Origin: a virus
IMG/VR virus record: IMGVR_UViG_3300025141_001021
Location: 1-20,114 of that record
DNA: 20,114 nucleotides
Reading direction: 5' to 3' (one strand)
The position numbers and the translations under genes are program-made. The notes below the pieces were generated by a model. That model saw only the letters and a program-made list of their open reading frames with translations, did not search any database and was not told the origin of the DNA. Numbering within the stretch: position 1 is the stretch's first letter; each line of letters opens with the position of its first letter. Below are positions 1,899-20,114 of this stretch, piece after piece.

Positions 1899-1904
1899 TT
1901 TCTC

Positions 1905-4900
1905 ATGGCTGAAGAAGATTCAAAATTTCTAAAATTTCAAGATAAAGACGGCAACTTACTTATTGATAGTTGTCCTGACGTTGAATTCGTCCCAGCACCC
2001 CTTGATTGCCCCGATTGTAAGCCAGATCCTAAATATATCGCCCCCAATTGGAAGTCACAAACAATCGATGAACCGTGGCTCAATCAAAAAGAATGCAGGT
2101 ATTATATTACAGTCACGACTCCTGAGACGTCGTTGTTGCCGGAAGGCGCGACTGTGGTATCAGATACAGAGGCGGAAGAACATCTAAAGACCATTTACAC
2201 TAAATATGTGACAGACGCTGCTCTGGGATTGCTCGTAGCGTACAACAAGAAGACAGACGATAGCACAATAGATCTGATCATTCCAGCAATGAAGGCTGAA
2301 AAATCCTCCTTGGATTCTCGCAAGTTCTCCCGCCTAAAGTTGCTATACTCTATTGCCTATGAGGACTTCGCAGGACTAGAAGAGCAAGAAGGGGACGCTG
2401 ACGGCGAAGACGATTCTAATGCAAACGGCGTTACAGTAGTTTACGATGCAAACGAGATCTACCATAAGTTAAGAACATTTCAAAAGACAATGAAGCTATA
2501 CGCTGGCTTCTATTATGGCCGCCGCCTAATCGACAAAGGCTCATTGACCTTCCAGCACCCCGATGGTGTCGAAACCCTCTATACTAATGAACAACTCGAT
2601 AGATATGGAACCGGGGTATTTGGCGAAGACTATATGATGTCAGCCCTTACGTCGCTCGATGACTTTTTGAACAATAGAGGGTTCAATATTTTTACCGGTT
2701 TTGAAATAGCCGACTGGTTTAGCAACAAGAACATAGTAGGACGCGTAGAGCTATTCTATAACAATGAGTATTTTCTTGAGAAGCTAAAAGTAACTGCGGG
2801 CTGCGGAGAGGCTGAGTGGACAGGAAGGAAGCTTCAAGCATTGACCCGAAAAGAGATCTATAAAGATCCAACTGCGATGGCTTACTTTGCTCAACTGAAC
2901 GAGATGGACAGAGCGATCAAGTCCCGCGAAACACCTGCTTGGATAGAGTTCCTTACTACCTATACATATCCGCCTGTAAAAGAAACATTTGACTGGCCTT
3001 ACGCCGATGCCGGCCCATCAGAGGGCGGTTGTATTGCTGGCGCTCTAGAACGAGAAGCCAAACAACTAGGCGTCGATATTTTAAATGATACCATGAGCAT
3101 CGGAAAAGCCGCGGCCTATGCATATGTAAAGAACGTTTGTATGTCTTCATCGGCCGAAGATCGTATTGGTGCCCCCGTGGAGCAGATGAGGGAGCTTGGT
3201 CTTTTGTACACCCCGACAGAGAGTGCGTCGGGAGAGATGGCGAAAAAGAACATACTGGCGTATTCTACAGAGCAAGCCTTTAAGGAACTGGAGAGTAGCT
3301 CCCAGCCATTTATTAACATCTGTGCTAAGATGGGAACAGTGGTGCCGGGAACCGACAAGAAGATGTTGGATGATATGTGGTCAGGCGCTTTTGATCAGGC
3401 TAAATTGGCTGGTCTCAAGAGCTTCTTGCTAGAAGGCGTTACTTGTCTTATGGGAAGTGTGACATTCGAGGAATTCCTTGCGACGTCATTGCAGTCTGCG
3501 CTTGAGTCAATGACACTAGAAAATTTTGGAGAGCTATTCGGTGGCTTGCCGCCGGAAAGACAGCAAGCTATACAAGACAAGCTTAATGCTCGATGGGAAA
3601 GCGGAGAACTGCTCGAAGAAAATAGCAATAGTCAATACTTGTCTGACGTAATTCAAGACATGCCTAATGGCGTCCCATCGCCATGGCTGGATCCGAGCAT
3701 GGTTGCGCTTCAAAATGCCCACGTCACCGAAGATCCGGCTACAAATGCGCCTATTGTTCCGACAACAATCTCTGGAAATGCATTAGAACCAAACCGCAGA
3801 ACCTTGGCAGTGAGACTTGATACTGCTTCGCAGACCTATTCTTCGGTCCCCGGTATTATGGAGCTATGGGCTAGCCAAATGATACAGGAATATCAGGATG
3901 ATCTGCTCGAACTACTCGAACCAATTGGAAAGTTTCCAGGCGCCCAGGTTATTACACATACGCTATTAGAGTTAGACTGCCCGTTGCCGCCCCTGATGAC
4001 ACCGACGTTTATGGAAAAGATGTCCAACCTACGCCCGGACCTTCCACAGTTTAAGACAAAAGACGACGTTAAAATTCCAAAAACAGAATATCCCGCAGGC
4101 TGGGTTCCTAAGTATAAAGATTGGACTGCTTTTATTTACGAGGCAGCCAAGTTGGTAATCCAGCAAGTTCTAATACAGACAATAACAAGGCTTATCAAAA
4201 AGGTGTGCCAGCTTCTTGGTGATGCAATTTGCGCAGCCATTGAGACTGCTGGAAAGCTTGCCGCGGCCGCCATTACTGATGGTTCAAGCGCAGAGTTTGG
4301 GAACATTATCCGTGACAGCATTTGCGGCCCAGATGCCGATCAGGCAACTGTCGATAAGACAATCCAAGAGATGTTCGAAAAGCTCGGTGTTGGTGGCGCT
4401 GCATTGGCAGATCCTATAGCGGTCCAGAACTTCGTATCTGATGTTTCTTCAGCAGCTAGCCGTAAAGAACTACTCAATGCATTTGACGGCGAAATGTCTG
4501 CTGAGTTGGCTGAGATCATAGACAACTTGATCGAATATGAATACCCGCAGTTCCGTCAGGGGCTATCAAATCGCGGCGCCATAGCAGGATTCTTTAAGAA
4601 TATCGGTAACATAATGCCCATTGATGTTCGTGCTGCAATGAAAGACTTTGTTAACTCACTTCCAGAGCAAGACATCTTGCCGGCCAACCCTTCTCTTTGT
4701 GCCACGCCTGAAGACCTTGAAGACTACTGTAACTTGAGAGCCGCGCTCTTAACAGGTCGCTCAACCCCAGCACAATCGCAGGAAATGTGTCAGGCAGATA
4801 AGGACGAGCGCCTTGCCGACTTGGCAGACTTGGCTAACGCCCTCAATGGGCTGCCTGTAGACCTTCCTCCCATGCTTTCGGACCCTGGGTGTGAGAACGG

Positions 4901-7900
4901 GCTGTTCCCCTTCGAAAACCCCGCCCAAACGGCAGCCACGGCGACTGCGCTCGGAGGCTCTTTAGAGCAGCTTAAGATTGACTTTACAAAGGACATGATC
5001 GGTAATGGGCCCTTTTGGAGCGACTGGGGCTTTCTAAACATGACCTTGTCAGACACGATGGGTAAAGCTTTGAGCACCCACCATCGCGAAGTATCCTTTT
5101 CAAGAAGCAAGGTGGACTTTGTTAGCGACCTCTCCCTCCCAGACGATTATGTCACAGAGGAGAATTTTCTATGGGTTTTCAGCGATCCAGTGGCGACCCC
5201 CGGTCAATATAGTAACTTTCCCAAGTCAGTGGCAGAATGGCTCAGAGATCAAATAGATGTGCTTCCGATTAGCTATAACCTCAATAACGATTTCAGTGGC
5301 AGTGAAATATTCGATCAGAGTTTTGAGGCTCTTGGGGTAACAACTTGGAATGGTAGCGTCAATGTTTTGGGCGTACCAGATTATGGCTACAATATTAACC
5401 TAACAACACAGTGGGACCCGACCACGAATGCCAGCACTGAGAATGGTGCTTCTTCCGCAGGCTTTATACGACTTGAGCGCCTTCCCAGAAAGAGTACGCC
5501 AGATCTTCATTTGGAATTCCGTGACAATTTCGATGGCCGCAAGGAAGCCCAATTTGGAGTTGGCTACGATATTGGACTTTATCTATCCGATATAGTACAG
5601 AAAGCCGATGGGACCTACACCAACAAGGGGCTACCTACTGCTCCACTGGATGCAAATCGAGTCCTTATTTATGAAATGCTAAATGAGGCAGCCATGGCCA
5701 TGGAGAACCGCGAAGCCGGCTCCGAAACTTTAATTCAAGACATGTTGTTTGAATTCCTGGCGGTAGATGATACGCTGGGTTATTTCTACGAGGACGACGG
5801 CACTCGATTGTCTGAGTTCCCTAACTTTACGTCTTGCTTCGAAACCCACCAAGACCACACTCCCCCTGTGGTCCTCCTAAATGAACTATTAGACAAGGTT
5901 CCATCTTCTGAGGCTCCCACAAAAGGCCGGTTAAGAGCCTTCATCCAAGACTATATGTCACAGTTTACAAACGACATTAAAGCCGAGATTGCAGGCAACA
6001 AAGCAGCTTGGGCTTATGGCGCCAAGTTTGATGACCTATCCCAGAAAGATATAGAATATGTTGTCGATGATAATCAGGTAACAGACGCCTATGTTGATGG
6101 AGTATACTATGATTTGGTTCCTGGCGGTACTCTATATGGTTCCATTAAAAAAGTAGATACCACTGCAACTAAAAACTTTAATCCTGATGGCTTGCGTAGC
6201 TTGCGCAATTCAGACGCAATCATGGGATTAAGCCGAGATCAATACGAGAACAAAAACGCTCCTAAGAAGATTAGAGCATATTATCTCAATCCAAGCACAT
6301 ACGGAGGCACGTATACTTCGCCTCCGATTTATATCAAGCCCCAGAAGAACGAAGGCTGGATGGGGATGGCTGAAGTCCTTTTTCCCGAAACCAGTCCCTG
6401 CAAGCCGTCCAAGAAGGAGATGGTAGATTTTGATGGAATACAGGAAGAGGTCAATGACAACTATAACAAGGTTGCAGAAGACCCCCGTCTCGCCAACGAA
6501 AACGAATGCACGCTCCAGGTGCCTTACAATAGGATCCTTGAGCGCCCCTCGGTCGCGGGAATCGAGGGCGTTATTCGCGCCGCATGCAGGATTTATGTCA
6601 CCACTCATTTCTTAAAAGCATCGGCATTGTTTTCTGTATTTAACCCAACACACCACCGAGAAACATTCGGTAGCCTTTACGCTCAGTTTATAGTAGAAGA
6701 CATGGAGAAGTCGTTCAAGGACGCTCAAAATGGATTCTTTGAGTTCTTTAACCCATTTAAGGACGAAGAATTCTGGTACGGGTTCCTGGAAATGGCCGTC
6801 CAGACCTACTCAAGATATATTGATGAGGAGCGTATTGTGTCTCCGAAACCAGAAATACGTGCCGCTCTAACCAGATTAAACGACATGCAGGAGCAGTATC
6901 AGTATCCTTCCAGAGCAGATTTACAAGATGCGAAAGAATCCGGCAGCACTAAGTGGTGGCAAACACTCGACAGCTACCGTGAAGAAAAGAACTTTGAAAC
7001 TGTGCAGGCCACAGAGGAAGACGCCAAGTTGATTCTCAAAGAGTTCGTTATGATGGAACTTGAAGAAATGGGCGCCACCTTCACGGACAACCTGAAGACT
7101 CTGGACCGCCAACCGAAGTATGAAAGACTGGGATACTACGTTTTAACAAACAAGTCTCAAGGGGGCATTGATCTCGATCTACACAAGACCATTGAAAAAG
7201 AACTTACAGAACTTCCCAAGAGCGGTGAAGGGTATTATACAGCAGGAAACGAATTTAGCGATTCAATGACTGCTGAGATGTATACAGGGTACTATCATGT
7301 TCAGCAAGACGATGACGGAACCCCCGTTTATGTTGCTGGCGAATATCAGAAAGATGGCGAAGATCAAGCGGTCTTAAGACCATGGTCTAACAAGATTGTT
7401 GTTCCAATCGGAGACATACAGGAATACGATTCAGGCGTCAACTATATTCTTACTAGTACAGAGACACCGTTTATTGTTGAAAAATACATCTCTATTAACG
7501 GCAACAAGAAAAATCCAACTGCCGCCATAAACACAATAAGAGGTAAATCATCCGGCAACATCTCCGACCACTACCCTGGTACTATGCTACTGCTTACTGA
7601 GACTGATGAAGTGACTGGTGAAGAGAAAGAGATTGGAATCACCGGTGAACTAGGTGTTCGACATGGACTGTTGTTCTCTATCGGAATAAACGGACAAAAA
7701 TATGAAATAACTAGCGTTGAAATTGACGCACTCGATCTTAAGGTTACAGATGTTCAGCCTCTCGAAGGCAACAGCGAGCTTCTATTCTGTCTTATTCGTC
7801 ATTTGGTAGATGATTCTATGTTTAGAATGCTTACACAGTATATCTTCCCAATGCCAAAGGCACTCTCTACCATGGCAATCTACAATGATCTGGGATTCTT

Positions 7901-8402
7901 GCCGTCAATCGCTCAGGTTACTGTGGAGGAGGGGCTAGGAAAACCCGGCTGGCTGCCCAACCCTCTCAAACCGCGCACTATTGACAACATTCCTGGCATG
8001 ATTGCGACTTTCCCGGACGCTCAAGAAGGGGATTACACGCCTAACTACGACAATTCTAGAGAGGGTTGGGCAAACTATGAAGATCGGCAGCCCGGATTCC
8101 TAGCAGGCGTCCCTGGAAGCCCACAGTGGATCTTTGGACTTTTTGTTGTGACCTGGGATGAATGGGACCGCGTACTGCTTAAAAACTCAAAAGCAAGACT
8201 TAAACAGATGTTCCGTTCTTATTATTACTCTAAGGACTTCAGCCCGTTTCACTTTAAGCTTGATTTTGGTAAAATCTTCCTTAAGAATTTGAAAGGTAGT
8301 ATGTTCCCCAGTCCAGCGATTAAATTACTTCCATGGTGGAAGCGAAACAAGATCCGCGCTAATCCCTTTGATGCAAATGGAAATTTGTGTGATAAGAACT
8401 GA
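1905..8402 (+). CDS. Giant structural protein of unknown function (2165 residues)
   Basis: I do not recognise a named family. The start is supported by an AGGAA just upstream and a tight 9-base gap. Visible features in order: a four-cysteine cluster in the first 64 residues (Cys 23, 35, 38, 64, including CPDC); an acidic low-complexity stretch at about 159-176 (EGDADGEDD); a long mixed helical region; a hydrophobic, probably helical segment at about 743-790 rich in Ile, Leu and Ala; an Asp/Asn/Tyr-rich middle; and a strongly basic C-terminal tail (about 2112-2165, with KLLPWWKRNKIR). There is no signal peptide and no enzyme motif that I can see. Lying between the spike-like gene and the gp25-like gene, it is most likely a very large baseplate component. 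A tape-measure protein is less likely: the sequence is not a continuous heptad-like coil, and tape-measure genes normally lie upstream of the spike. The coding call is certain; the role is inferred from context. Confidence 0.9.
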   Translation: MAEEDSKFLKFQDKDGNLLIDSCPDVEFVPAPLDCPDCKPDPKYIAPNWKSQTIDEPWLNQKECRYYITVTTPETSLLPEGATVVSDTEAEEHLKTIYTKYVTDAALGLLVAYNKKTDDSTIDLIIPAMKAEKSSLDSRKFSRLKLLYSIAYEDFAGLEEQEGDADGEDDSNANGVTVVYDANEIYHKLRTFQKTMKLYAGFYYGRRLIDKGSLTFQHPDGVETLYTNEQLDRYGTGVFGEDYMMSALTSLDDFLNNRGFNIFTGFEIADWFSNKNIVGRVELFYNNEYFLEKLKVTAGCGEAEWTGRKLQALTRKEIYKDPTAMAYFAQLNEMDRAIKSRETPAWIEFLTTYTYPPVKETFDWPYADAGPSEGGCIAGALEREAKQLGVDILNDTMSIGKAAAYAYVKNVCMSSSAEDRIGAPVEQMRELGLLYTPTESASGEMAKKNILAYSTEQAFKELESSSQPFINICAKMGTVVPGTDKKMLDDMWSGAFDQAKLAGLKSFLLEGVTCLMGSVTFEEFLATSLQSALESMTLENFGELFGGLPPERQQAIQDKLNARWESGELLEENSNSQYLSDVIQDMPNGVPSPWLDPSMVALQNAHVTEDPATNAPIVPTTISGNALEPNRRTLAVRLDTASQTYSSVPGIMELWASQMIQEYQDDLLELLEPIGKFPGAQVITHTLLELDCPLPPLMTPTFMEKMSNLRPDLPQFKTKDDVKIPKTEYPAGWVPKYKDWTAFIYEAAKLVIQQVLIQTITRLIKKVCQLLGDAICAAIETAGKLAAAAITDGSSAEFGNIIRDSICGPDADQATVDKTIQEMFEKLGVGGAALADPIAVQNFVSDVSSAASRKELLNAFDGEMSAELAEIIDNLIEYEYPQFRQGLSNRGAIAGFFKNIGNIMPIDVRAAMKDFVNSLPEQDILPANPSLCATPEDLEDYCNLRAALLTGRSTPAQSQEMCQADKDERLADLADLANALNGLPVDLPPMLSDPGCENGLFPFENPAQTAATATALGGSLEQLKIDFTKDMIGNGPFWSDWGFLNMTLSDTMGKALSTHHREVSFSRSKVDFVSDLSLPDDYVTEENFLWVFSDPVATPGQYSNFPKSVAEWLRDQIDVLPISYNLNNDFSGSEIFDQSFEALGVTTWNGSVNVLGVPDYGYNINLTTQWDPTTNASTENGASSAGFIRLERLPRKSTPDLHLEFRDNFDGRKEAQFGVGYDIGLYLSDIVQKADGTYTNKGLPTAPLDANRVLIYEMLNEAAMAMENREAGSETLIQDMLFEFLAVDDTLGYFYEDDGTRLSEFPNFTSCFETHQDHTPPVVLLNELLDKVPSSEAPTKGRLRAFIQDYMSQFTNDIKAEIAGNKAAWAYGAKFDDLSQKDIEYVVDDNQVTDAYVDGVYYDLVPGGTLYGSIKKVDTTATKNFNPDGLRSLRNSDAIMGLSRDQYENKNAPKKIRAYYLNPSTYGGTYTSPPIYIKPQKNEGWMGMAEVLFPETSPCKPSKKEMVDFDGIQEEVNDNYNKVAEDPRLANENECTLQVPYNRILERPSVAGIEGVIRAACRIYVTTHFLKASALFSVFNPTHHRETFGSLYAQFIVEDMEKSFKDAQNGFFEFFNPFKDEEFWYGFLEMAVQTYSRYIDEERIVSPKPEIRAALTRLNDMQEQYQYPSRADLQDAKESGSTKWWQTLDSYREEKNFETVQATEEDAKLILKEFVMMELEEMGATFTDNLKTLDRQPKYERLGYYVLTNKSQGGIDLDLHKTIEKELTELPKSGEGYYTAGNEFSDSMTAEMYTGYYHVQQDDDGTPVYVAGEYQKDGEDQAVLRPWSNKIVVPIGDIQEYDSGVNYILTSTETPFIVEKYISINGNKKNPTAAINTIRGKSSGNISDHYPGTMLLLTETDEVTGEEKEIGITGELGVRHGLLFSIGINGQKYEITSVEIDALDLKVTDVQPLEGNSELLFCLIRHLVDDSMFRMLTQYIFPMPKALSTMAIYNDLGFLPSIAQVTVEEGLGKPGWLPNPLKPRTIDNIPGMIATFPDAQEGDYTPNYDNSREGWANYEDRQPGFLAGVPGSPQWIFGLFVVTWDEWDRVLLKNSKARLKQMFRSYYYSKDFSPFHFKLDFGKIFLKNLKGSMFPSPAIKLLPWWKRNKIRANPFDANGNLCDKN
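1971..2096 (+). other. Four-cysteine cluster at the N-terminus of the giant protein
   Basis: Cysteine codons lie at 1971, 2007, 2016 and 2094, giving the spacing C-x11-C-x2-C-x25-C, with the middle pair in a CPDC motif. Such spacing is compatible with binding one zinc or iron atom, or with disulfides. This is an inference from spacing only. Confidence 0.5.
4128..4274 (+). other. Hydrophobic helical segment within the giant protein
   Basis: Residues about 742-790 are rich in Ile, Leu, Val and Ala, with few charges (for example LVIQQVLIQTITRLI, then AGKLAAAAI). The stretch could be a buried core helix pair or a membrane-active segment. The few charged residues inside it (Lys/Arg at RLIKK) argue against a simple single transmembrane helix. 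Confidence 0.4.
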
Positions 8403-8434: not shown

Positions 8435-8803
8435 ATGTCTTCTATCGGAGTGAGTCTTCCAATAACACAGGATTCTGGAAACGGTTTTACTACAATAAAG
8501 ACCATTAGACGAATGGTAAAGCAAAATCTTAAAATGCTTATTCTTACTATTCCCGGTGAGAGAGTCATGATTCCTGATTATGGAGTGGGGTTATCTAAAT
8601 ATCTGTTCGAATTTGCCGCAACTGGAATTCAAAGCGACATTCAAAGTAGAATAGAGGAACAGGTTGCTAGATATTTGCCAATTGTAAGGATTATCGATAT
8701 GACAATCGCAGTGCCTTCGGACGCCCCAAACTCGCTATCAGTGCAACTAGTTTATAATATTCCGAATTTGAACACCAGGGATATGTTAGAAATTACTATT
8801 TAA
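8435..8803 (+). CDS. Baseplate wedge protein, gp25 / gpW family
   Basis: This 122-residue protein is close in length to T4 gp25 (about 132 residues). It shows the pattern of the GPW/gp25 family: an N-terminal stretch with polar strands, a helix with IKTIRRMVKQNLKMLILT, then PGERVMIPDYGVGLSKYLFE (the 'G-E-R-x-M-x-P-x-Y-G' hallmark). A helix with RIEEQVARYLPIV follows, then a terminal strand pair. In contractile tails this protein sits in the inner baseplate, binds the gp6/gpJ wedge protein and primes assembly of the sheath. The family was once annotated as a lysozyme, but no catalytic role is expected. A strong Shine-Dalgarno sequence precedes it, and the gp6-like gene follows after 19 bases, the usual pairing in P2-like and T4-like phages and in contractile injection systems. 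Confidence 0.93.
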   Translation: MSSIGVSLPITQDSGNGFTTIKTIRRMVKQNLKMLILTIPGERVMIPDYGVGLSKYLFEFAATGIQSDIQSRIEEQVARYLPIVRIIDMTIAVPSDAPNSLSVQLVYNIPNLNTRDMLEITI

Positions 8804-8822: not shown

Positions 8823-10619
8823 ATGCCAGATAACACCAAGAAAAACACTCCTATCAATTATCTTAACCGTGAATTCAGCGGTATCCGCAACGATCTTATA
8901 GAATTGGCGGAACGATTTTACCCAACACAGTTTCAAGATTTTAGTGAAGGTTCGTTTGGTGCTATGATGGTCGATGCGGTTGCTTACGTTGGCGACCAGC
9001 TATCTCTTTACCTGGATTACAATGTCAATGAGGCTTTTCTAGATACTTCATTTGATAGAAACAATATCTTACGCCACGGCGCTGCTTTAGGCTATAAGAA
9101 CCGCGGCCGTTCCTCTACTTATGGAACAGTGGCGCTCTTCGTTATGGTGCCGGCCGAAGTCGGCGGCTTGGGCCCTGATACTGCTTATATTCCGATCCTT
9201 CCAAAAGGCGCCCGTCTTTCATCAACCGCAGGCATTGGATTTATCCTTACGGACGATGTTAGTTTCTCAGAGCCCAAGAATGACGTTGTAGTTGCCCGCG
9301 TGAACGCCTCCACAGGCGCCCCCACACACTACGCCATTAAAGCTTATGGAAACGTAGTGTCTGGCCAGCTAGCTTTCCGACGCGTCACCGTCGGAGCCTA
9401 CCAAAGATTCTTAAAAGTCAAAATAGCCAACGAAGAAATCGCAGAAGTCATAAGCGTTTTTGATGCAGAAGGTAACGAGTTCTTCGAAGTAGATTACTTG
9501 GCGCAAGATATGGTTTATAAAGAACTGAAAAACGATAACTTCCAGGCGGACAATGTACCGTCAATTATCAAGCCTCTTCTTGTATCAAGAAAGTTTATCA
9601 TGGATACTGGACCTAGAGGCACCTTCCTACAGTTTGGAAGTGGGGATCCTGGCGCCACAAACGTTGTAGCAAGCCCACAGAGCGTAGCAGTCAACACATT
9701 TGGGAAGTCATACATTACTGACACCACATTCGATCCCACTAGGCTGACCAAAAACCATAGTTTCGGAATAGTCCCGGCAAATACCACGCTGTTGATTTCT
9801 TACCGAATCATCCAGCCGCTAAACGGCAACCTGGGTGTTGGAGCGATTAATGGGGTGGGCTCTTCAACATTGCAGTTTAAGGACAGAAACTCACTAAGCA
9901 CGGCACTCATCACAGGGGTTCAAAACTCTCTAGAGGCCTCAAACGAGACCCCAATAGTTGGAGACGTCTCATCCATTTCAGTGGGCCAGTTAAAGCAGCA
10001 GATTCTAGACACTTTTCCAACACAGAACCGCGCCGTTACTCAAGCGGACTATGAGAATTTGGCTCTTAGAATGCCCCCGCGTCTGGGTTCTATAAAGAGG
10101 GTTTCAACACAGAAAGATCAAGACTCATTAAAAAGAAATCTAAATCTATATGTTGTCTCTGAAGATCAGTTTGGAAAACTAACGAGAACCAACCAGACAA
10201 TCAAAAACAATCTTAAAACTTGGCTGTCTACTCATCGCATGATTAACGATACCGTCGACATTCTTGATCCTTACATTATTAATCTCGGAGTAGACTTTGT
10301 AATCTCGGCATCCCCCGGCGTTGATAAAAACACAGCGCTCAATGCAGCCATGACAAAAATCAGGCAGCGCTTTGCTGAGGGATTCTTTATTGGCGAGAAG
10401 TTATACATCAGCGACGTCTACAGTACCCTTAAGGAAACGATGGGGGTTCTTGATGTGGTAAAAGTCAAAATAAACAACAAGACTGGTGCTCGCTATTCAT
10501 CGGTAGCCTACAACATTAACAAGAACTTGTCACCCGATGGCAGTTATCTCATGGCACCAATGAATGGCGTCTTCGAGATTAAGTTCCCGATTACAGATAT
10601 AAAAGGAAAGATTAGATAA
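8823..10619 (+). CDS. Baseplate wedge protein, gp6 / baseplate J family
   Basis: This is a 598-residue protein; T4 gp6 is about 660. The first 95 residues match the gp6 pattern closely: INYLNREFSGIRNDL, then FSEGSFGAMMVDAVAYVGDQ and a stretch describing a helix pair with FLDTSFDRNNILRHGAALGY. A beta-rich middle (about 100-370) follows. A second baseplate-J-type part then carries TQADYENLALRMP (about residues 400-412) and GSIKRVSTQKDQ, ending in alpha/beta segments that include the LGVDFVI strand. In T4, gp6 dimers form the ring that joins the wedges around the hub and drives the change of baseplate shape on contraction. It follows the gp25-like gene, as expected. The stop codon overlaps the next start by one base (TAATG), implying coupled translation. 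I see no truncation or odd codon. Confidence 0.93.
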   Translation: MPDNTKKNTPINYLNREFSGIRNDLIELAERFYPTQFQDFSEGSFGAMMVDAVAYVGDQLSLYLDYNVNEAFLDTSFDRNNILRHGAALGYKNRGRSSTYGTVALFVMVPAEVGGLGPDTAYIPILPKGARLSSTAGIGFILTDDVSFSEPKNDVVVARVNASTGAPTHYAIKAYGNVVSGQLAFRRVTVGAYQRFLKVKIANEEIAEVISVFDAEGNEFFEVDYLAQDMVYKELKNDNFQADNVPSIIKPLLVSRKFIMDTGPRGTFLQFGSGDPGATNVVASPQSVAVNTFGKSYITDTTFDPTRLTKNHSFGIVPANTTLLISYRIIQPLNGNLGVGAINGVGSSTLQFKDRNSLSTALITGVQNSLEASNETPIVGDVSSISVGQLKQQILDTFPTQNRAVTQADYENLALRMPPRLGSIKRVSTQKDQDSLKRNLNLYVVSEDQFGKLTRTNQTIKNNLKTWLSTHRMINDTVDILDPYIINLGVDFVISASPGVDKNTALNAAMTKIRQRFAEGFFIGEKLYISDVYSTLKETMGVLDVVKVKINNKTGARYSSVAYNINKNLSPDGSYLMAPMNGVFEIKFPITDIKGKIR

Positions 10620-10621
10620 TG
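10603..10621 (+). promoter_or_regulatory. Shine-Dalgarno and stop-start overlap (TAATG)
   Basis: AAGGAAAG at 10603-10610 lies inside the end of the gp6-like gene, 8 bases before the ATG at 10619. The TAA stop (10617-10619) shares its last A with that ATG. This arrangement typically gives coupled re-initiation and a fixed ratio of the two products. Confidence 0.6.
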
Positions 10622-12163
10622 CCTTTGCTAAGATACACTGCGTCGGCAGACAACACTATTGTAAACGCCTTTCAGCCCAACTTGCGAGTTCGCGGCACCG
10701 GCTCCAATGCCGGCGAGGCGGATATCCTAGAGGTTTTCTCTATCTACGGAAGGCAGACCACTTCCTCGCAGGAACTATCGCGAACTTTGATTAAGTTCCC
10801 TATTAACGAGATTTCTAACAATCGCTCAACTTCCGCGATTCCTGCTAGTGGTAGTGTGAATTTTTATCTTAAGTTGTATAACGCACCTAGCTCAAAGACA
10901 GTGCCGACAGATTTCACACTGGTTGTTAACCCGATGAATTCAGACTGGCAAGAAGGAATCGGACTGGATCTTGAGGGATACAAAGATCTTACAAAAGGAA
11001 ACATTGGTTCTAACTGGATGAGCGCCAGTTCAACTGCCTCATGGAACTCTGTGTCTGGTGGTGGCGATTGGCTTTCAAGCTCCGCAGATTATCGATATGA
11101 ACAAAGATTTCAGTCTGGTCTAGAAAACTTAGAAATCAACATCACCCCGCTTGTTGAGTGCTGGTTGGCAGACACTATTCCGAACTATGGCTTGGGAGTC
11201 AAGCTAACATCCAGCCAGGAAGCGTCCGGGTCTAGCATAACAGTGCTGGCCTCTAACGACCAAAGCGTGCAGAATAACCCCCTCGGCGCTACGGTTTCTA
11301 ACTATACGAAGAGATTCTTTGCCCGCAAAACTCAATATTTCTTTAAGCGACCTACGATTGAGGCTCGGTGGAGCGACGTTAGGCGTGATGATCGATCGCA
11401 TTTTTACTTTAGTTCTTCCCGTGCTCCTGCGGTAGATAACCTTAATACTCTTTATTTTTATAACGTTATCCGCGGCCAACTCGCTAACATACCCAACATT
11501 GGAACGGGTGTGCTGTTAGTAAGTTTATATTCTGGCTCCAGCCCTTATAACACAGGTCCATCGGGCTCAGCGCTTACCCTCTATGATGGCAAGACTGCAA
11601 TGACAGGCGGTTATGTGTCCACGGGTATCTACTCCTGTTCAATCGGTCTTGTTTCTGCGAGCACGTCGCCTCTATATGATGTGTGGCATACCGGCGCCGG
11701 CGGCAGTCCTACTGATGAATATTTCACGGGCTCTATCAGTCCCCGGCTTTTTTCCGCAGGAATGACCTTGGAGCAGCCTCAGTATGTTATCAACCTGACA
11801 AATCTTAAAGACAAATACCTTTCTCAAGAAACTGTGCGCTTAAATCTATATGTGCGAAATAAGAATTGGAATCCCACTATTTATACAGTAGCGAAAGAAG
11901 CTCCCGAGGCAATGCCTATTCAGAGCGCTTCGTTTAGAGTATACAGGATTTTTGATGGCTATAACGCAGTAGATTACGGAACAGGATCAGATTTCCATAC
12001 TGGTCTTTCCTACGACGTATCCGGCAACTACTTTGATTTCGATATGAAGTTACTTGAGCCTGGATACATGTACGGATTTAGGTTTGCATTCTATGATGAA
12101 ATATCAAAATCATGGCAAGAACAGTCAGAGACCTTCAAATTTAAGGTAGAGCAAGGGTTGTAA
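10619..12163 (+). CDS. Beta-rich baseplate/tail protein with DNRLRE-like N-terminal module
   Basis: This 514-residue protein is rich in Ser, Gly, Asn and aromatic residues, as virion surface proteins often are. Residues about 1-200 follow the layout of DNRLRE/CBM-type jelly rolls: an opening YTASADNTIVNAF, a strand RTLIKFPINEI, the tryptophan-glycine stretch SDWQEGIGLD (about 108-117), a WNSVSGGGDW patch, and TPLVECWLADTIPNYGLGV (about 176-194), which fits the family's 'D/T-x-T-x-x-V-x-x-W' and 'N-Y-G-L' ending. Residues about 230-400 are unassigned beta-type sequence. The last 100 residues look like an immunoglobulin- or fibronectin-like fold (FRVYRIFDGY to FKFKVE). The translationally coupled start ties it to the gp6-like gene, so it is probably a wedge-attached decoration, possibly binding carbohydrate. 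The domain call is from pattern only. No enzyme motif is seen. Confidence 0.72.
   Translation: MPLLRYTASADNTIVNAFQPNLRVRGTGSNAGEADILEVFSIYGRQTTSSQELSRTLIKFPINEISNNRSTSAIPASGSVNFYLKLYNAPSSKTVPTDFTLVVNPMNSDWQEGIGLDLEGYKDLTKGNIGSNWMSASSTASWNSVSGGGDWLSSSADYRYEQRFQSGLENLEINITPLVECWLADTIPNYGLGVKLTSSQEASGSSITVLASNDQSVQNNPLGATVSNYTKRFFARKTQYFFKRPTIEARWSDVRRDDRSHFYFSSSRAPAVDNLNTLYFYNVIRGQLANIPNIGTGVLLVSLYSGSSPYNTGPSGSALTLYDGKTAMTGGYVSTGIYSCSIGLVSASTSPLYDVWHTGAGGSPTDEYFTGSISPRLFSAGMTLEQPQYVINLTNLKDKYLSQETVRLNLYVRNKNWNPTIYTVAKEAPEAMPIQSASFRVYRIFDGYNAVDYGTGSDFHTGLSYDVSGNYFDFDMKLLEPGYMYGFRFAFYDEISKSWQEQSETFKFKVEQGL
12153..12157 (+). promoter_or_regulatory. Ribosome binding site of the LamG giant gene
   Basis: AAGGG lies 9 bases before the ATG at 12167, inside the end of the previous gene. 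Only 3 bases separate that gene's stop from this start. This is modest support for the chosen start. Confidence 0.45.
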
Positions 12164-12166
12164 TAA

Positions 12167-15100
12167 ATGAGCGATATCAAAAACTTATTTGATTCGAAAG
12201 CAAAATACCAAGATTACCAAACTGAGCAAGAAGCTTTTGAAACTGTCGAATCTAAGGAAAATGCCACTCAGTTAGTGGTAAAGCAGAACACGTTTGTTCC
12301 GCAGATTGATTACAGTAAGCCCTCTCGTTTTGCATTTTTTGGCTCTGCTGAGCTATATTACTCTGGGTCTTTTGACAAGATTTCTGGCTATTACCCCTAT
12401 GATGGTACTCGTGCTGAAAAGAATGCGTTTTACAACAGTCTGCTGGAAGTAGACAAATACATATTCGATAATCTTTATCCGCGAAGAAACGGCTATATCT
12501 CTCTCGCTAGCGATGGGTGGACTAGTCGTGTTGGCGGCTTGGTTGATGGCTATGGATTGCCGACCACGCAAGAATACATTACCCTAAAGGGTGGTCCAAA
12601 CACAGGCTCCGCCGGCTCATCCTTGGCGGATCAGTCACCTAATGCCTTCTCCGACGCCTTTAACTACGGTAACATCTATGCCGATTCCGGCAGCATGTAC
12701 CAGAAGGCCGGCTACCCATCCGATTATGGAAAGGGCACTCAGCTATCTAACCTAAGATCTGATTTTGACGACGGCGTAACGGTAGAATTCTGGCTTAAGA
12801 CGGGTTCTCTCACTCCACTCATCACCACCCAAAAGCAAGTCATCTTTGACATGTGGAACAATGTAGCCACCTCTTCGATGAGTTCTGATTACGGAAGAAT
12901 TAGGATCGAGCTAAATTCGGCAGCGTCCAGCCCAATAACATTCACGGTTCAATCCGGCTCAGCTACTAAGACCTCCACAATTGGCGCCGGCACCTCCGCC
13001 ACCGATTCATTTGGGGATTGGCAGCACTATGCCCTGGTGTTTGAGAACACAGGGAGCCTCTTCCGCACAAGGCTTTACGTCAATGGAATCTTTAATGATG
13101 TTGTTGCGACAGTCGGAACGGTCTCCGAGCTAAACTCCAAGAACATGATGGCTCGTCTAGGTTCACTAATCACGAGCCCCAGCGGCTCCGCCGCCGCGTC
13201 CGGCGCCGGAAAGCTATCCGGTTCAATGGACGAATTCCGATTCTGGAAGGCTGCCCGCAACGCCAAGCAGATTGGAGAGAACTGGCTTGATCAGGTTGGC
13301 GGCGGAACAAACAGCGACGTTGTCAACGCTACCCTAGGCGTATATTACAAGTTCAATGCTGGTATTACTGGCGAAACAGCAACCGACTCTGTGGTCTTGG
13401 ACTATGGCGGCCGCGTTAGCAATGGCGTGTGGACCAATTACTCATCAAATGGGCGTTCTATAGATTCGGCCATGGTGCTAGCAGGGGCTGCATCTAAGGA
13501 ATACAAGGATCCAGTCGTAAGAACAAACAACCCAAGCTACGTATCTTTGCGGACAAACTTACTGGCAAGCGGCTCCAACCACGATCTTAACAACAACTCA
13601 ATGTTCATTAACTACGCCCCGGAATGGGTGCTTTCTGAACATGCTGATAGCGGAAATGACAATCTTAAATACATTTCACATATTTGCGGCGCTTACTTCG
13701 ACAAGCTATATGTTCTAACTCAGCAGATACCGAAGCTAAATCACGCCAACTACACTACAGCTTCGGCCGAACCGCTACCGTTCGCGCAGCACCTCCCACA
13801 GAGCTTGGGTCTGCAAACTCCTGATATCTTTGTCGATGCCACCATTCTAGAGAATTTACGTAACCGCGACGAAGACAGCTTCTTCGAGGGCGAACTAAAA
13901 CAGACACAAGATCTTATTTACCAGAACCTGTACAATAACTTGGCACACATCTTTAAGGCCAAGGGAACAGAAAAGGCGATTAGAAATGTTTTAAGGTGCT
14001 TTAACTTAGACGACTCTCTGATCCGCTTCAAGACATATACCAAGGGTACAACATACGAGATAAAGAACAATCTAAAGCAGATAATCGTTGAAGACGCAAG
14101 TCTAAACCTTAATAAGTCACAGAACATCGGCGCCGTAGTTTACCAGCGTGTCAGTTCTTCAAACGCAGAGTCTACGGGTTATCTTTCTGCATCGCGCGGA
14201 ACTGCGGAGCGCCCTTATGGGTTTACCACTGAAGCCGATATCCTGTTTCCGAAATTCAACAAAATCAATGATTCGATAGAAAGAGATTTCACCGAAGTTT
14301 CTCTATTCGGAACAGTGGCTGTGGCTCAGCAGGCGACATCATCTAATGGAACCGACACAACCTTCTTGGCTAGCGACTCTGCTAACTTTGGAGTATATGC
14401 GGTTCGCGATGAACCCTATTCACACAATGTATCTTTCAAGCTAAGCTCTTCCATATATCCGGTCCCGTTTCCGATTCTAACCAGTAGCATATTCTCAAAT
14501 GTATATGACGATAGCGCGTGGAACATTTCAGTCCGTGTTCGGCCGTCAGGCTACCCGTACTCATATTTGGTGTCCGGCTCTATGTCGGACACGTATGACG
14601 TTATTTTTAGAGGCGTTAACTCTTATCTCGGAGTTGTTCAGAATAGTTTCGAAGTCTCAAGCTCCATAATCGCAGCATCAGGAAGCGCTTTCTTGACCAC
14701 GCCTAAACGCGTATACTGTGGTGCCCGCCGGTGGAACTTGACTGGCGCCCTCTTGCAGAAGTCAGATGTCATTATTTCAAACATCAAGGCCTGGGCAAAA
14801 CACATAGATAACCAGTCATTGGATCAACACGTTTATGATTTCGACAACTCTGGTATATCTGCTTCCTATCAAAGCATTTCAGGCTTAGACAACAACAACA
14901 ACTATTTTGATATTTGGAATGCCAATACATTGGCGCTCGAATGGAATTTCGACTCAGTTACCGGTTCTGATGCATCTGGTAACTTTTATGTACAAGATTA
15001 TAGCTCAGGCTCTGCATTACTCAGAGACAACTACGGTTGGATCGGAGATACTATCGGATACCAGCACTCTGGTTATGGCTACGGTTTCGGAGCTTCCTCC

Positions 15101-18100
15101 TCCGACGTCGTCACCACGCGCCTGACAAACACATTTAGAGCATTGACGCCTGAAGAAGCTGTCGGATCCGACATGATCCAGATCTTAAGTGAAGACGATA
15201 CGCTCTTTGAGGTCCTGGAAACTGTACCGGACTACGTCTTTACTTTAGAGAAGAGTTTATATCAGGCTCTTTCCGAAGAGATGATGAACTTCTTGGCTGG
15301 CGTTGGCGACTTCAATAACTTAGTAGGCGAACCAGTTAACCGTTATCGCTCTCGCTACAAGAACATAGAGAAACTCCGCGAGATGTTCTTCCGAAGAGTG
15401 TCGGATGTCGCGACCGTCGAAAAGTTCATGGACTACTACAAGTGGTTTGATTCAGGACTAAGTCACATTCTAGCACAGATGATACCTGCATCGGCTGACT
15501 TTTCTCCCGATTTGTTCAACGTTATTGAAAGCCACGTTTTGGAGCGCCCAAAGTATGAAACCAAGTTCCCTACTTTGGAGGCCCGTGCCGAAGACCCATC
15601 AGGTCAGGCTGAGGGCGCAAGTGGAAGAAGCTATCCTGGTCACCTTGGTGGCTCTCCGCTTCCTTCATCGCCACGAAACACAACCATTCGCATTCCCTAC
15701 TGGAAGCAACGCGCCAACCGAACCGATACCGAAATTAGTTCCGGCGATGCAGTAATCGATGCGCAGAGAGAGACATTTAGAAAGGTCATCAACTCTGTGC
15801 CAACGCTCAGCAGTAGCGCGACTATTATTACATCCGATAGCCAGCAGGTTGGATATAACACATTCCAGAAGGCTGCTTTCGGAAAACAATACAGTGTTGT
15901 TATAAAGGATCCAGTTGCTCCAAGCGCACTAGTCAAGGGTGGCGTAAACTTTCCCCCCACAAAAAAGATTGATTATACTTACAATGCGCTCCGCCCCTTT
16001 GGGCCGGTTAACCAAGATCTTGGCGCATACGTCCCAGAGAACGTACTTGTCTCGTTCGTAGATGAGTTCGATCAGATTCCGATCAATAATGATCCCTCAT
16101 CAGATCCTTCAGCGAAAGTTATGAGAACTGTTAGAGTTCAGCATGGTCGCGATTATGAGCAGGGTATTGGATACTCCAACGTCAAATCTACAATGGCGTT
16201 TCCTTTCAACATTGTTAGCGCATCAGTCGGCGCCGGATACAATGCGCTCATTAACAACAGCATCAACGGCACAAATGTACATGTAAACATCGTAAACCTG
16301 CACAACGATGTTTATGGCCCCGATATGGAACATCCGATGCAGGGTCCATTCACTGAGTACGCTGTTGGTGGCCACCAGTCCCGCCACATCTCTCTTAATA
16401 GCGGCCCCACTCTTGATACCTATCTTACACGGCCCGAAGGATGGCTGCTTCTTTTAGGACAGCAGTTCAACATTACTGGCGCCATCGGCATGACCGGTCC
16501 AGATTATCCTTATCCTGAAGCCAACGACCTAGGAGTAGAGCCTTATCCTCTTACTGGTACCCTAAAAGCATATCTCTACCGCGACTTTGTTGCAAAGAGC
16601 CCGGTGAACATCAAAAACATACAGCTTCGCACTGGCTCAACTATCCTTGGCAACTATCGCCAGAACTACGATGTGGTGATGACGAACGGCGCCTACGCCA
16701 ACCCTCGCCATTTCATCGACAATCAGCCCACACTGCCTTCGCAGGTGGTCCAAGGACCCACGACGGGGGCAACCTCCGTAAGGACGCTCCTGAGCCTTCC
16801 TAGGGCCACTAACGCGCACTTTCAGTTTGTAGACGATTACTCTATTGGATATCTTACCGGAACCAACAATCAGACAGTAATAAGAGGTATATTCTCCGCA
16901 CCCGGAGGAATGGACACTCTCACCCCCGGCTATCAGGATTTCCGTGCCGGCGAATACTCAGTCTACAACGCCCTCAACTACAGAAACCTATCGGTCAAGG
17001 GTCTGTCTCAGCCTTCTAATGTGTCTCAGTCGCAGGTGTTTGGTTCTGAGCCTGTCCAGAAGCGCGTCTACGACATACATGGTAAAGATTATGGTTTGCA
17101 GCCGCTACGTTCTCGTCACGCCGAGCGGTTCTTCCGAGATTCACTCTTCCAGACTAATCCCGGCGCCAGTTATGAACAGTTGCCATCTTTCCAGAAGAAT
17201 CACCGCAACAACATAACAAGACTTGCGATAAATGCCGATGAGACTTACTCTTCTAGCTCGCTCTACGATAACGCTTTTGTTTCTCACCAGATCCCCCGGT
17301 CTACACAGCAGTATGCCTGGATTAATGGAAATGTAGTTGCCGGCAATAACATTTACGGTTTTGCTCCGACAGATTTCTTCTTGAGTGATTCTCTTGGCAT
17401 GCGAGAAGCCTATAACTGGGTCACAGCTAGTGATTTTGGTTCTTTCCTCAATGCATCGGGCAACAGAATATTTGGACTAGCACAAGCCGCCGCCCTTAGC
17501 TCTCCTCATCTCCCGGCCTCCTTTGTGCCAGTAGATTTTATCGGCTTAAACACCAATATCGTTCATTATATAACAAAATCGGATAACGTAGTTGGCCTGG
17601 ATTCCACTGGGGCCGGCCTTGGTTATGTAAATAGTGATTTTTCACCCACTCTTGTTGGGACTCGTACAGCAACAAACGCGGCAATGCTAAACAACCTTTT
17701 GCTTAGTCGTAATGGACCTTATGGGTTTCCCACTTGGCAACAGGTGCGCAATGCGGACAACCCCATTTTGAGAGCAGAGCGCTCCGACAACATCCTATCG
17801 TTGCGGGATACCAATGGCCAGGGCACTACCAGATATGATATGCCCCCCGTTAGCTTGCGAGGGCGCCCAATCTACCTAAACATTGACACGACAGGCTCCG
17901 CAGAAAACGTGCAGAATTACACGCTCCAGGCCGAGTTTGACAATGAGAGGATATACTTCAACACTAACGAGCTTAACGATCGGTTCGATATTCACCTAGA
18001 TAGCTTCACTACACCATATCAGCAGTTGGTTGATATTACCAAGGGTACCCGCTACCGTTTGAATTGGGTTCTTTACGCAGAAAACGTTTTCCCATCACAG

Positions 18101-20114
18101 CGTAACGAGTTCTTGACGCGAACTAGCGAGCGCACAGGATATACCAACAATTTCTGGAGGGCAGCGCGAACAGATCGAAATACTACCGGCGCCAACTCCT
18201 GGGGCGCCCGGATGACGGGCTATGCGATCTCACAGAGCGTGTTCGTTCTTGACGCACCATTTGGATTCCTGACCCGGTCAGCACCCCCAAACACTGTGTC
18301 TTCTTCACTCGACGGTCCCATAAGAAGGAGTTACTTCCTTAGCGGCAACGCCGGCGAGCTACAAAACACATACACCACTTACTACACCGGTTCACAATAT
18401 CCTGGTACCGAGCCCGAACGCGCGAACAAGCATGCTGTCGGCGCTCTCTACAGTCGTAAACAGACAATCGGAAGTCCCCGCTCTGTCATTAATCCGACCG
18501 CCTTTGCGATCCCGGAAACAGGCAGTTCGGTTACATGGAACAACTTCCTTGAAGGGGCAAGACAGATAGAAGTATTCGGCGGAGAAGCTGAATGGGAAGC
18601 TGGCACCGGCGCCGGAATCATCAATAACCAGAACGGCACAGCTAGCTTCGTGTCTCACCCAAGCGAGCCGTGGTTCGATCAATACAGTGATTACAAGGAA
18701 GATCTGCAACTTAAGGCTCGCGGCTACTCTATCGTTCCCGAATTCAGAATCAGCGAGAACCTTAGAGACTATGTGCGCGGCGGTATATATAACTCAGGCA
18801 AGACCAACGACTTTGAAATCGTCGGAACTGCAATCCGCAGCGATTCGTCGTCCTTCTACAGAGATTACTCAAACTCAGAGTTCTTACAGAGCTTTAAGCA
18901 GATCCAAAGTGACACTTCACTGGATGCATCTGAGATACGTCTAGTGTGCTCTGCGGCTATTCGCCTCAACCCCTACAAGGGCTTCTACCCTGCCCAGCGT
19001 AGTATCCAACTAGTCGAGCAGTTTGTCGATTCCTACAGGCCGATGATGAAGACGGTATTGGCTGGTAATACTCCAAGAGATATTCAAGACCCCACCAGCA
19101 CATCATATGGCGTCAATCGTATTATTGCTTCTGCGATATCTTCTCCTGGAATCCTTTATAACACCATCAAGAGCGGAATCGCTGTGGATTATCCGGTTAT
19201 CTCGAATACTCAAAGAGTCTTCCCGGCGCTAATGTCCTCCTCCGCAGGTCGAAAAGCACAGAATAACTGGCTCATGGTCTCTAAGCTTGGCCTTGAGGGT
19301 CGACCCATCGAACAGGATTTGACTTCTAGCACTTGGGATGCTCGCCTTCCATTCGAGACAATCATGTACCCGGATAAATACATGGTCGGTGTTGATATTA
19401 CTGATTGGGAATCCCACCCAAGTTGCTCTTTCCACGATTTCGGTGATGAAGACCGAAGCATTACTATGACTATGATGGGTACCCCCGCGGCAGATCTATA
19501 CTCCAGAATGAGTAAGAACTTCTTCGGCGCCGTTCCAGACTTCTTCCTGAAGGATTCTAATTTAACAAGGTTGGAGTCAGATGTCGTCACGGACGATCTA
19601 AAGTTTGCAGCAGGCGAAGTTTACATGGCGAGAATAAAGATCTTCCGTTCTTTGACGGGCTCTCGTGATTATTCAAATGAAATGCCAACATTTACTCAAG
19701 GCTTGCCGGCCGGACTGACTGCCTATGCTCCGTATGGTGGTCGCCCTTACTTCTTGTCAACAGATACCTGGACAACAGGCTCAGCTTACTATCCCCTCCC
19801 ACAGGACCCGATGAGAGGAAGCAGCATCAGCAGGATGTCAGAAACTTTCACAATGTACAGCCGCCCCACTGCGTTTGGAGCCCCTATCGCAGGGGTGGGT
19901 ACCGCCTCGGTGGGCGCCTACTCTTCAGGCTCAGTGTATGACAGTGTTACCGGCCACAACCCTGCCTTCACCCCTCCTTACTATGACGGAGAGGCTTGGG
20001 TTGATCTAGTCTTTAGGCCATCAGCTTCTGTTAGTTATGATCTGGAGAAGATCCTCTCCGAAACTCAAGCAGTCTACAGAAGATTTGACCCCGGTATGGC
20101 CCTCACCAGCAGTC
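12167..20114 (+). CDS. Giant LamG-containing baseplate/tail protein, 3' end outside window
   Basis: The frame is open for 2649 codons to the last base, with no stop on reading through. A LamG/concanavalin-type jelly roll occupies residues about 200-375: VTVEFWLKTGS, WQHYALVFEN near 285, RTRLYVNG, then GSMDEFRFWKAARN. Residues about 580-625 contain YNNLAHIFKAKGTEKAIRNV, which resembles the KGT-helix motif of P2 tail protein I-like wedge proteins. A second beta-sandwich-like part lies near 690-890 (DDSAWNISVRVRP). Helical sequence with FFRRVSDVATVEKFMDYYKW follows near 1080-1100. The rest (about 1100 to the end) is mostly unassigned, with distinctive stretches such as GEYSVYNALNYRNLSVKG (near 1596) and YSIVPEFRISENLRDYV (near 2188). 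Gene order after gp25- and gp6-like genes suggests the gp7/gpI position. It is probably a huge wedge or fibre-like structural protein; a tail fibre alone is the main alternative. Coding is certain, function only partly so. Confidence 0.9.
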   Translation, partial: MSDIKNLFDSKAKYQDYQTEQEAFETVESKENATQLVVKQNTFVPQIDYSKPSRFAFFGSAELYYSGSFDKISGYYPYDGTRAEKNAFYNSLLEVDKYIFDNLYPRRNGYISLASDGWTSRVGGLVDGYGLPTTQEYITLKGGPNTGSAGSSLADQSPNAFSDAFNYGNIYADSGSMYQKAGYPSDYGKGTQLSNLRSDFDDGVTVEFWLKTGSLTPLITTQKQVIFDMWNNVATSSMSSDYGRIRIELNSAASSPITFTVQSGSATKTSTIGAGTSATDSFGDWQHYALVFENTGSLFRTRLYVNGIFNDVVATVGTVSELNSKNMMARLGSLITSPSGSAAASGAGKLSGSMDEFRFWKAARNAKQIGENWLDQVGGGTNSDVVNATLGVYYKFNAGITGETATDSVVLDYGGRVSNGVWTNYSSNGRSIDSAMVLAGAASKEYKDPVVRTNNPSYVSLRTNLLASGSNHDLNNNSMFINYAPEWVLSEHADSGNDNLKYISHICGAYFDKLYVLTQQIPKLNHANYTTASAEPLPFAQHLPQSLGLQTPDIFVDATILENLRNRDEDSFFEGELKQTQDLIYQNLYNNLAHIFKAKGTEKAIRNVLRCFNLDDSLIRFKTYTKGTTYEIKNNLKQIIVEDASLNLNKSQNIGAVVYQRVSSSNAESTGYLSASRGTAERPYGFTTEADILFPKFNKINDSIERDFTEVSLFGTVAVAQQATSSNGTDTTFLASDSANFGVYAVRDEPYSHNVSFKLSSSIYPVPFPILTSSIFSNVYDDSAWNISVRVRPSGYPYSYLVSGSMSDTYDVIFRGVNSYLGVVQNSFEVSSSIIAASGSAFLTTPKRVYCGARRWNLTGALLQKSDVIISNIKAWAKHIDNQSLDQHVYDFDNSGISASYQSISGLDNNNNYFDIWNANTLALEWNFDSVTGSDASGNFYVQDYSSGSALLRDNYGWIGDTIGYQHSGYGYGFGASSSDVVTTRLTNTFRALTPEEAVGSDMIQILSEDDTLFEVLETVPDYVFTLEKSLYQALSEEMMNFLAGVGDFNNLVGEPVNRYRSRYKNIEKLREMFFRRVSDVATVEKFMDYYKWFDSGLSHILAQMIPASADFSPDLFNVIESHVLERPKYETKFPTLEARAEDPSGQAEGASGRSYPGHLGGSPLPSSPRNTTIRIPYWKQRANRTDTEISSGDAVIDAQRETFRKVINSVPTLSSSATIITSDSQQVGYNTFQKAAFGKQYSVVIKDPVAPSALVKGGVNFPPTKKIDYTYNALRPFGPVNQDLGAYVPENVLVSFVDEFDQIPINNDPSSDPSAKVMRTVRVQHGRDYEQGIGYSNVKSTMAFPFNIVSASVGAGYNALINNSINGTNVHVNIVNLHNDVYGPDMEHPMQGPFTEYAVGGHQSRHISLNSGPTLDTYLTRPEGWLLLLGQQFNITGAIGMTGPDYPYPEANDLGVEPYPLTGTLKAYLYRDFVAKSPVNIKNIQLRTGSTILGNYRQNYDVVMTNGAYANPRHFIDNQPTLPSQVVQGPTTGATSVRTLLSLPRATNAHFQFVDDYSIGYLTGTNNQTVIRGIFSAPGGMDTLTPGYQDFRAGEYSVYNALNYRNLSVKGLSQPSNVSQSQVFGSEPVQKRVYDIHGKDYGLQPLRSRHAERFFRDSLFQTNPGASYEQLPSFQKNHRNNITRLAINADETYSSSSLYDNAFVSHQIPRSTQQYAWINGNVVAGNNIYGFAPTDFFLSDSLGMREAYNWVTASDFGSFLNASGNRIFGLAQAAALSSPHLPASFVPVDFIGLNTNIVHYITKSDNVVGLDSTGAGLGYVNSDFSPTLVGTRTATNAAMLNNLLLSRNGPYGFPTWQQVRNADNPILRAERSDNILSLRDTNGQGTTRYDMPPVSLRGRPIYLNIDTTGSAENVQNYTLQAEFDNERIYFNTNELNDRFDIHLDSFTTPYQQLVDITKGTRYRLNWVLYAENVFPSQRNEFLTRTSERTGYTNNFWRAARTDRNTTGANSWGARMTGYAISQSVFVLDAPFGFLTRSAPPNTVSSSLDGPIRRSYFLSGNAGELQNTYTTYYTGSQYPGTEPERANKHAVGALYSRKQTIGSPRSVINPTAFAIPETGSSVTWNNFLEGARQIEVFGGEAEWEAGTGAGIINNQNGTASFVSHPSEPWFDQYSDYKEDLQLKARGYSIVPEFRISENLRDYVRGGIYNSGKTNDFEIVGTAIRSDSSSFYRDYSNSEFLQSFKQIQSDTSLDASEIRLVCSAAIRLNPYKGFYPAQRSIQLVEQFVDSYRPMMKTVLAGNTPRDIQDPTSTSYGVNRIIASAISSPGILYNTIKSGIAVDYPVISNTQRVFPALMSSSAGRKAQNNWLMVSKLGLEGRPIEQDLTSSTWDARLPFETIMYPDKYMVGVDITDWESHPSCSFHDFGDEDRSITMTMMGTPAADLYSRMSKNFFGAVPDFFLKDSNLTRLESDVVTDDLKFAAGEVYMARIKIFRSLTGSRDYSNEMPTFTQGLPAGLTAYAPYGGRPYFLSTDTWTTGSAYYPLPQDPMRGSSISRMSETFTMYSRPTAFGAPIAGVGTASVGAYSSGSVYDSVTGHNPAFTPPYYDGEAWVDLVFRPSASVSYDLEKILSETQAVYRRFDPGMALTSS
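12776..13290 (+). other. LamG / concanavalin-A-like domain
   Basis: Residues about 204-375 of the giant gene show the alternating strands of a laminin-G-type jelly roll: an EFWLK opening, a QVIFDMW strand, the central W-x-H-Y-A-L-V-F core at 13019, a LYVNG strand, and the closing SGSMDEFRFWKAARNAKQI. Such modules in phage tails often bind glycans or protein ligands. No catalytic residues are apparent. Confidence 0.85.
13910..14035 (+). other. Tail-protein-I-like KGT helical motif
   Basis: Residues about 582-623 of the giant gene contain a helix, then K-G-T-E-K-A-I at 13961-13981, then a second helix ending in RCFNLDDS. This resembles the 'K-G-T-x-x-A-(I/L)-R' motif of P2 gpI-like baseplate proteins. 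The resemblance is short, and the call depends on gene order as much as on sequence. Confidence 0.5.
14380..14800 (+). other. Possible second beta-sandwich domain
   Basis: Residues about 738-878 carry alternating strand-like segments, including DDSAWNISVRVRP, YDVIFRGVN and KRVYCGARRWNLTG. The layout is like a second, diverged LamG-type fold. Weak sequence match; offered as an inference. Confidence 0.4.

Follow-up and report, generated by a model that had tools for sequence, protein, structure and literature searches.

The giant protein encoded at the end of the analysed window (the entire 20,114-base IMG/VR record IMGVR_UViG_3300025141_001021) is likely, in our judgement, to be a baseplate wedge protein that combines a novel, clade-specific extension with exchangeable LamG binding modules. 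Its gene (12167..20114, + strand; codons 1-2,649 of 3,070) occupies the wedge position of a contractile-tail gene cluster. The core of the protein is homologous to wedge-position proteins of cultured phages, the extension is confined to one clade, and LamG domains are inserted, with turnover between relatives, at fixed points (sockets) of the chain.

Reading frame and completion of the gene

The frame opens with an ATG at position 12167 of the + strand and continues for 2,649 codons up to the window edge without a stop, exactly as reported in the first-pass annotation of this DNA. The chance of an open run of this length at 47% GC is about 8e-62. Because the window spans the complete virus record, the edge at which the frame is cut is the end of the contig. 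The gene could be completed with the 81-kb contig L002 (IMGVR_UViG_3300025096_002738), which shows 99.2% nucleotide identity to the window over 7,947 shared bases. In L002 it encodes a protein of 3,070 aa (340 kDa), far bigger than T4 gp7 (1,032 aa), as had been anticipated from the incomplete frame. The stop codon (L002:19211-19213) is located beyond the window, and a 351-aa gene begins one base past it.

Over the giant gene, the window and L002 show 42.5 synonymous and 22.5 non-synonymous differences (dN/dS about 0.16). Four of the 20 residue changes found among 2,649 residues (Y/G, V/C, F/I and A/E) are clustered at residues 764-784 (window 14456-14518), which reflects either a local sequence error or recombination.

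We identified 55 distinct complete and unsplit homologues, of 2,783-4,409 aa. The nearest of them are collinear with the L002 protein from end to end (44-53% identity), and identity in the widest set decreases to about 30%. Since complete homologues exist and the nearest set aligns over the whole length, an assembly error inside the frame, named in the first-pass annotation as grounds for refutation, is excluded; the frame is real and the assembly is sound. A frame cut by the end of its contig could be an artefact of assembly or open by chance, but complete genes on independent contigs, evidence of purifying selection and end-to-end conservation in dozens of genomes speak against this explanation, which the complete homologues already refute and to which we assign practically no probability.

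Genomic context and phage type

Upstream of the giant gene, the window encodes (i) a VanY-like peptidase, (ii) a 323-aa protein, (iii) a 2,165-aa protein (1905..8402, + strand), (iv) a gp25-type wedge protein of 122 aa (8435..8803, + strand; Pfam PF04965, E 6.5e-13; PHROG 261, E 1.4e-17), (v) a baseplate wedge gp6/J-type protein of 598 aa (8823..10619, + strand; PHROG 6, E 2e-20; PHROG 219, E 1e-13) and (vi) a conserved 514-aa protein (10619..12163, + strand), for which Pfam and PHROG searches gave no family. The order gp25-gp6-(514 aa)-giant, in which one additional gene separates gp6 from the giant, is constant in all first-scan loci, and is fixed from the approximately 2,100-aa gene onward. 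The 2,165-aa product, encoded directly before gp25, is a second very large conserved protein without a convincing Pfam, PHROG or PDB sequence match; its relatives are 35-44% identical.

A T4-type Gp23 capsid gene scored over the cut-off in all nine giant-bearing contigs of 187-203 kb, and the 189.7-kb genome G002 of this group also contains matches to tail sheath, terminase, GroEL and DNA polymerase III alpha. On these grounds, the giant-bearing phages are T4-superfamily myoviruses. Gp23 was not found in G001, the 81-kb partial contig nearest to the window. The stretches of IMG/VR that match the giant number more than 550, which suggests that its family is common, and the label "uncultured marine virus" on one structural match suggests a marine source.

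Genome G002 (IMGVR_UViG_3300020477_000014) additionally carries, about 13 kb upstream of gp25, a gene of the RuBisCO large-chain family (45215-46396, corresponding to L184:7215-8396; 394 aa; PF00016, E 5.8e-34), which is absent from 14 other contigs of the group. The giant was also considered as a target of a diversity-generating retroelement. This was rejected, since the reverse transcriptase domain RVT_1 is absent from all 13 records searched; the positive controls were detected.

The probable wedge core and its relatives

In profile comparisons with hhalign, the wedge-position proteins of Immutovirus, Mel-JY01 and LR756508 matched the giant over residues 446-1118 (E 1e-23), and a deeper profile matched residues 448-1118 to the same family (99.9%, E 1.8e-32). 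The core comprises (i) a helical gpI-like domain (residues 446-620; 13502..14026, + strand; hhalign E 2.5e-17 against the same three proteins), with helices predicted at residues 456-611, (ii) a predicted second beta-sandwich of the concanavalin A/lectin type (residues about 615-880; 14009..14806, + strand) and (iii) a second conserved helical segment (residues 1000-1118; 15164..15520, + strand; hhalign E 1.7e-9 against shorter, mid-size wedge-position proteins). The profile of the gpI-like domain matches 83 mid-size ORFs and that of the second helical segment 55 non-giant ORFs. Residues 451-620 are of near-constant length (169-181) across the 55 giants, and near relatives share about 40-60% identity in the core and the C-terminal half.

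These relationships emerged at the level of profiles. With tblastn, the giant had no match at E 1e-5 among 50,697 phage records, and no isolate in this set has a full-length counterpart; weak matches to Immutovirus and LR756508 (E 0.06) were later confirmed by profiles. When the core, the C-terminal half and the 514-aa and 2,165-aa neighbours were used as sequence-profile queries against the PDB, only chance matches were returned. Comparison by hhalign of the giant's own segments revealed no internal duplication, the sole signals being overlaps of adjacent segments. For residues 440-1639, the AlphaFold model is of low confidence in some parts (pLDDT 72.5, pTM 0.47); searched as a whole with Foldseek, it matched lectin-type folds, with no wedge chain among the 50 matches listed. 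Toxin entries among these matches were rejected as merely sharing the concanavalin A-like fold.

The matched proteins of Immutovirus (immuto35A_161, 1,265 aa), Mel-JY01 (WWT39511, 1,336 aa) and LR756508 (1,400 aa) are encoded in the same place, after gp25 and gp6. The gp6 protein itself has full-length relatives in Immutovirus (Flavobacterium phages), Microcystis phage Mel-JY01 and the 484-kb phage LR756508 (28-31% identity; 31% over the full length between the window and Mel-JY01). The three wedge-position proteins are homologous to giant residues 446-1118, but have no Pfam-detected LamG, leave the N-terminal part of the giant unmatched and lack its 1,870-residue extension. Complete mid-size proteins measure 1,188-2,214 aa and are therefore separate in size from the giants. 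Genes downstream of the giant and of the mid-size wedge genes, compared gene by gene, showed weak links (best probability 59%).

In a T4-rooted tree of gp6, all 104 giant-bearing sequences fall into one clade (local support 0.96), which has 21 further members on contigs too short to judge protein size, and 60 mid-size sequences form a separate clade (support 0.996). Because every giant falls in one gp6 clade, the extension was, most simply, gained once.

T4 gp7 (1,032 aa) and P2 gpI (176 aa) share with the giant the position after gp6/J and the alignment of a KGT motif. The gpI-like motif noticed in the first-pass annotation is indeed present, as KGTEKAIRNV, within the segment IFKAKGTEKAIRNVLRCFN (residues 595-613; 13949..14005, + strand), which aligns with P2 gpI KGTIGAIRRVVEPLG and T4 gp7 FYSTKGIEASYKFLFKV below significance (hhalign E 0.02-0.03, probability about 2%). 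A family match did not follow: Pfam Tail_P2_I (PF09684) reached 11-13 bits, below the cut-off of 20.6, on the giant or the LR756508 protein in three of 11 records. Direct sequence homology to T4 gp7 or P2 gpI is thus not significant and suggestive only, and for this reason the protein is assigned to the wedge from synteny and from relatives whose own placement likewise depends on gene order only. Synteny and the homology of the core nevertheless support the proposed wedge position, and the giant is probably a wedge-position protein working like gp7/gpI.

The clade-specific extension

Homology to the shorter wedge-position proteins stops at residue 1118, and from about residue 1205 onward sequence searches of Pfam, PHROG and PDB gave no match. 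The earlier statement that the remainder after about residue 1100 fits no family therefore holds, and no clear full-length match to a described family appeared in Pfam, PHROG, PDB or phage-record searches. The extension (residues 1205-3070, of which 1205-2649 lie in the window at 15779..20114, + strand) has no relative outside giant-bearing phages: four profiles covering it (E1-E4; residues 1200-1665, 1665-2100, 2100-2520 and 2520-3070) matched giant ORFs and none of the other ORFs of the loci searched, mid-size phages included.

AlphaFold modelled residues 1871-3070 of the L002 protein (partly within the window, 17777..20114, + strand) as one compact body (pLDDT 86.1, pTM 0.90). A Foldseek search of this unit against the PDB found nothing (best E 2.0). 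In the viral library BFVD it matched unnamed proteins and one "uncultured marine virus" entry (E 5e-83 to 6e-35); such proteins, e.g. A0A516M7I0 and A0A0F7LAZ6, are uncharacterised, have the same C-terminal fold and probably belong to the giant's family. We predict that this unit represents a new fold; this stays a prediction because a whole-chain search can miss small sub-domains.

LamG modules and insertion sockets

The LamG module proposed earlier was confirmed at residues 191-369 (12737..13273, + strand) as a concanavalin A-like domain (PF13385, E 4e-12; 47 bits against a cut-off of 27.6). It is the single Pfam LamG of the window protein, and the only part of the giant named by Pfam and PHROGs. 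The size spread of the giants results largely from insertions at about six fixed points, located at residues about 251-317 (within the first LamG), 1412, 1456-1466, 1661, 1688-1692 and 2156-2161. As the window protein has one Pfam LamG only, its later sockets are empty. The socket at residues 1456-1466 (16532..16564, + strand), adjoined by that at 1412-1414, holds LamG-type inserts of about 320-410 aa in L008, L010, L129 and L138. The sockets at 1661 and 1688-1692 (17147..17242, + strand) hold inserts of about 170-360 aa in six and 16 members, respectively, those tested being LamG-type. The socket at 2156-2161 (18632..18649, + strand), which AlphaFold places at a predicted beta-hairpin turn, holds LamG-type inserts of about 265 aa in L010 and L107.

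Representative inserts from every socket except 251-255 were tested with Pfam, and those at residues 295, 1412, 1456, 1661, 1688 and 2156 were identified as LamG (E 1e-10 to 5e-19, 42-69 bits). Inserts from different sockets are related to each other (BLAST). LamG detection in the 55 complete giants gave a single domain in 28 and two to five in the other 27, counts in which a domain broken by an insert can score as two or three pieces; since 28 manage with one, the extra modules are not essential. Their turnover is visible between relatives: the socket at residue 295 is empty in L003 and occupied in L100 (core identity 75%), and L113 has two modules versus one in L161 (core identity 72%). In two loci (L135:2192-4390 and L151:7947-9995) the 514-aa-type neighbour is enlarged to 733 and 683 aa, respectively, by a LamG-type region like the giants' inserts. 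Because the L100 insert and a portion of the enlarged neighbour in L151 share 61% identity over 117 aa, LamG modules appear, from these sequences, to move between genes.

Split versions of the gene

Two loci contain the giant in two pieces. In L165 it is encoded as proteins of 1,691 and 1,832 aa, split at about residue 1665-1694 (the 1661/1688-1692 socket region) with three in-frame stops between them, and in L092 it is split at about residue 2010, where a GGAGG resembling a ribosome-binding site precedes the start of the second part. Given that such natural versions occur, covalent continuity may not be essential at the split borders. In the 201-kb genome L086, several TAA codons in frame (L086:15860-15980) break the giant at about residue 905, representing a gene split or decay and possibly a pseudogene. 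A 1,559-aa ORF on a chromosome of a candidate division WOR-3 MAG (L172; CP070664.1, 9992-14668) was rejected as a natural short form, since the match breaks into a partial D12 DNA methyltransferase fused in frame to the core; this fusion is probably a chimeric assembly.

Proposed role and alternative explanations

We propose that core residues about 446-1118 would dock on the gp25-gp6 module, like gp7/gpI in other contractile tails, and that the largely compact extension (residues about 1205-3070) would build the outer baseplate. The LamG modules (one in the N-terminal region, with as many as four others distributed over about six insertion points) are exchangeable, and by analogy would probably bind host surface glycans during reversible adsorption, i.e. 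at first contact. This mechanism, including glycan binding, leans on the precedents of Vp4 Gp119 and evolved Dit described below. A more far-reaching reading, which we hold tentatively and at somewhat less than even confidence, is that residues about 1205-3070 form a new, very large fold in the outer baseplate of T4-type viruses of an uncultured and widespread clade, together with a socketed frame for the display of LamG modules, which are also swapped with the 514-aa neighbour, changing host adsorption. T4 gp7 is present as one copy in each of six wedges; if the giant had the same stoichiometry, it alone would enlarge the baseplate by about 2 MDa.

The LamG domains and variable inserts could also mean that the giant acts chiefly in adhesion, or in receptor binding like a fibre, and is only by chance encoded beside the wedge genes, with the gpI-like segment as an attachment adaptor. 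Listeria phage A511 offers a parallel, in that a large protein with a receptor-binding role, gp104 (1,309 aa), follows its J-type gene. However, hhalign shows no similarity between this protein and the giant; the near-constant length of residues 451-620 and the conservation of the core and C-terminal half are unlike receptor-binding tips, and the C-terminal half is predicted to be compact, not fibrous. We regard this explanation as rather unlikely. Of the fused wedge, adhesin and perhaps fibre roles suggested in the first-pass annotation, the wedge part is supported by synteny and core homology, and an adhesin role may be deduced from LamG domains inserted at several fixed points; the fibre part found no support, the giant having no fibre family match and the model of its C-terminal half being compact and not repetitive.

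It appears quite improbable that the extension arose by fusion of separate wedge proteins (with the roles of T4 gp8, gp9, gp10 or gp11) into the gp7-position chain. The two-gene versions in L165 and L092 would fit such an origin, as would the absence of clear T4 gp8 and gp9/10 homologues from giant genomes (none over the cut-off), but both are equally absent from cultured mid-size phages, which makes their absence uninformative. The splits are likelier later fissions, because all giants form one clade. Alignment of E1-E4 with hhalign against single sequences of T4 gp8-gp12 found nothing. A baseplate wedge protein with its own extension and LamG modules remains our preferred reading.

Comparison with known systems

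Few parts of contractile tails are as well conserved as the baseplate wedges; in the giants, a protein at the wedge position has grown to more than twice its size, apparently a single time in evolution. This leads to the testable view that uncultured viruses may change host attachment while their fibres stay unchanged, and the extension provides a large new structural target, a fold without a solved relative. Literature searches yielded no description of giant wedge proteins or of wedge proteins with LamG.

Baseplate wedge 3 of Bacillus phage Vp4 (Gp119, 831 aa) has two CBM folds and binds Bacillus cells, and its Deep-Blue counterpart (341 aa) is without these CBMs (PMC11406892). Carbohydrate-binding modules in a wedge protein correspond to our reading of the giant, a likeness drawn by description; Gp119 is far smaller, its named folds are CBM, not LamG, and it has no novel extension. 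In siphophages, CBM insertions in the conserved baseplate protein Dit ("evolved Dit") promote adsorption and are present or absent among relatives (PMC10688798), like the LamG of the giant. Evolved Dit is a different and far smaller protein of a non-contractile tail, whereas the giant has about six sockets in one protein. By analogy, we read the giant as a possible contractile-tail counterpart of evolved Dit.
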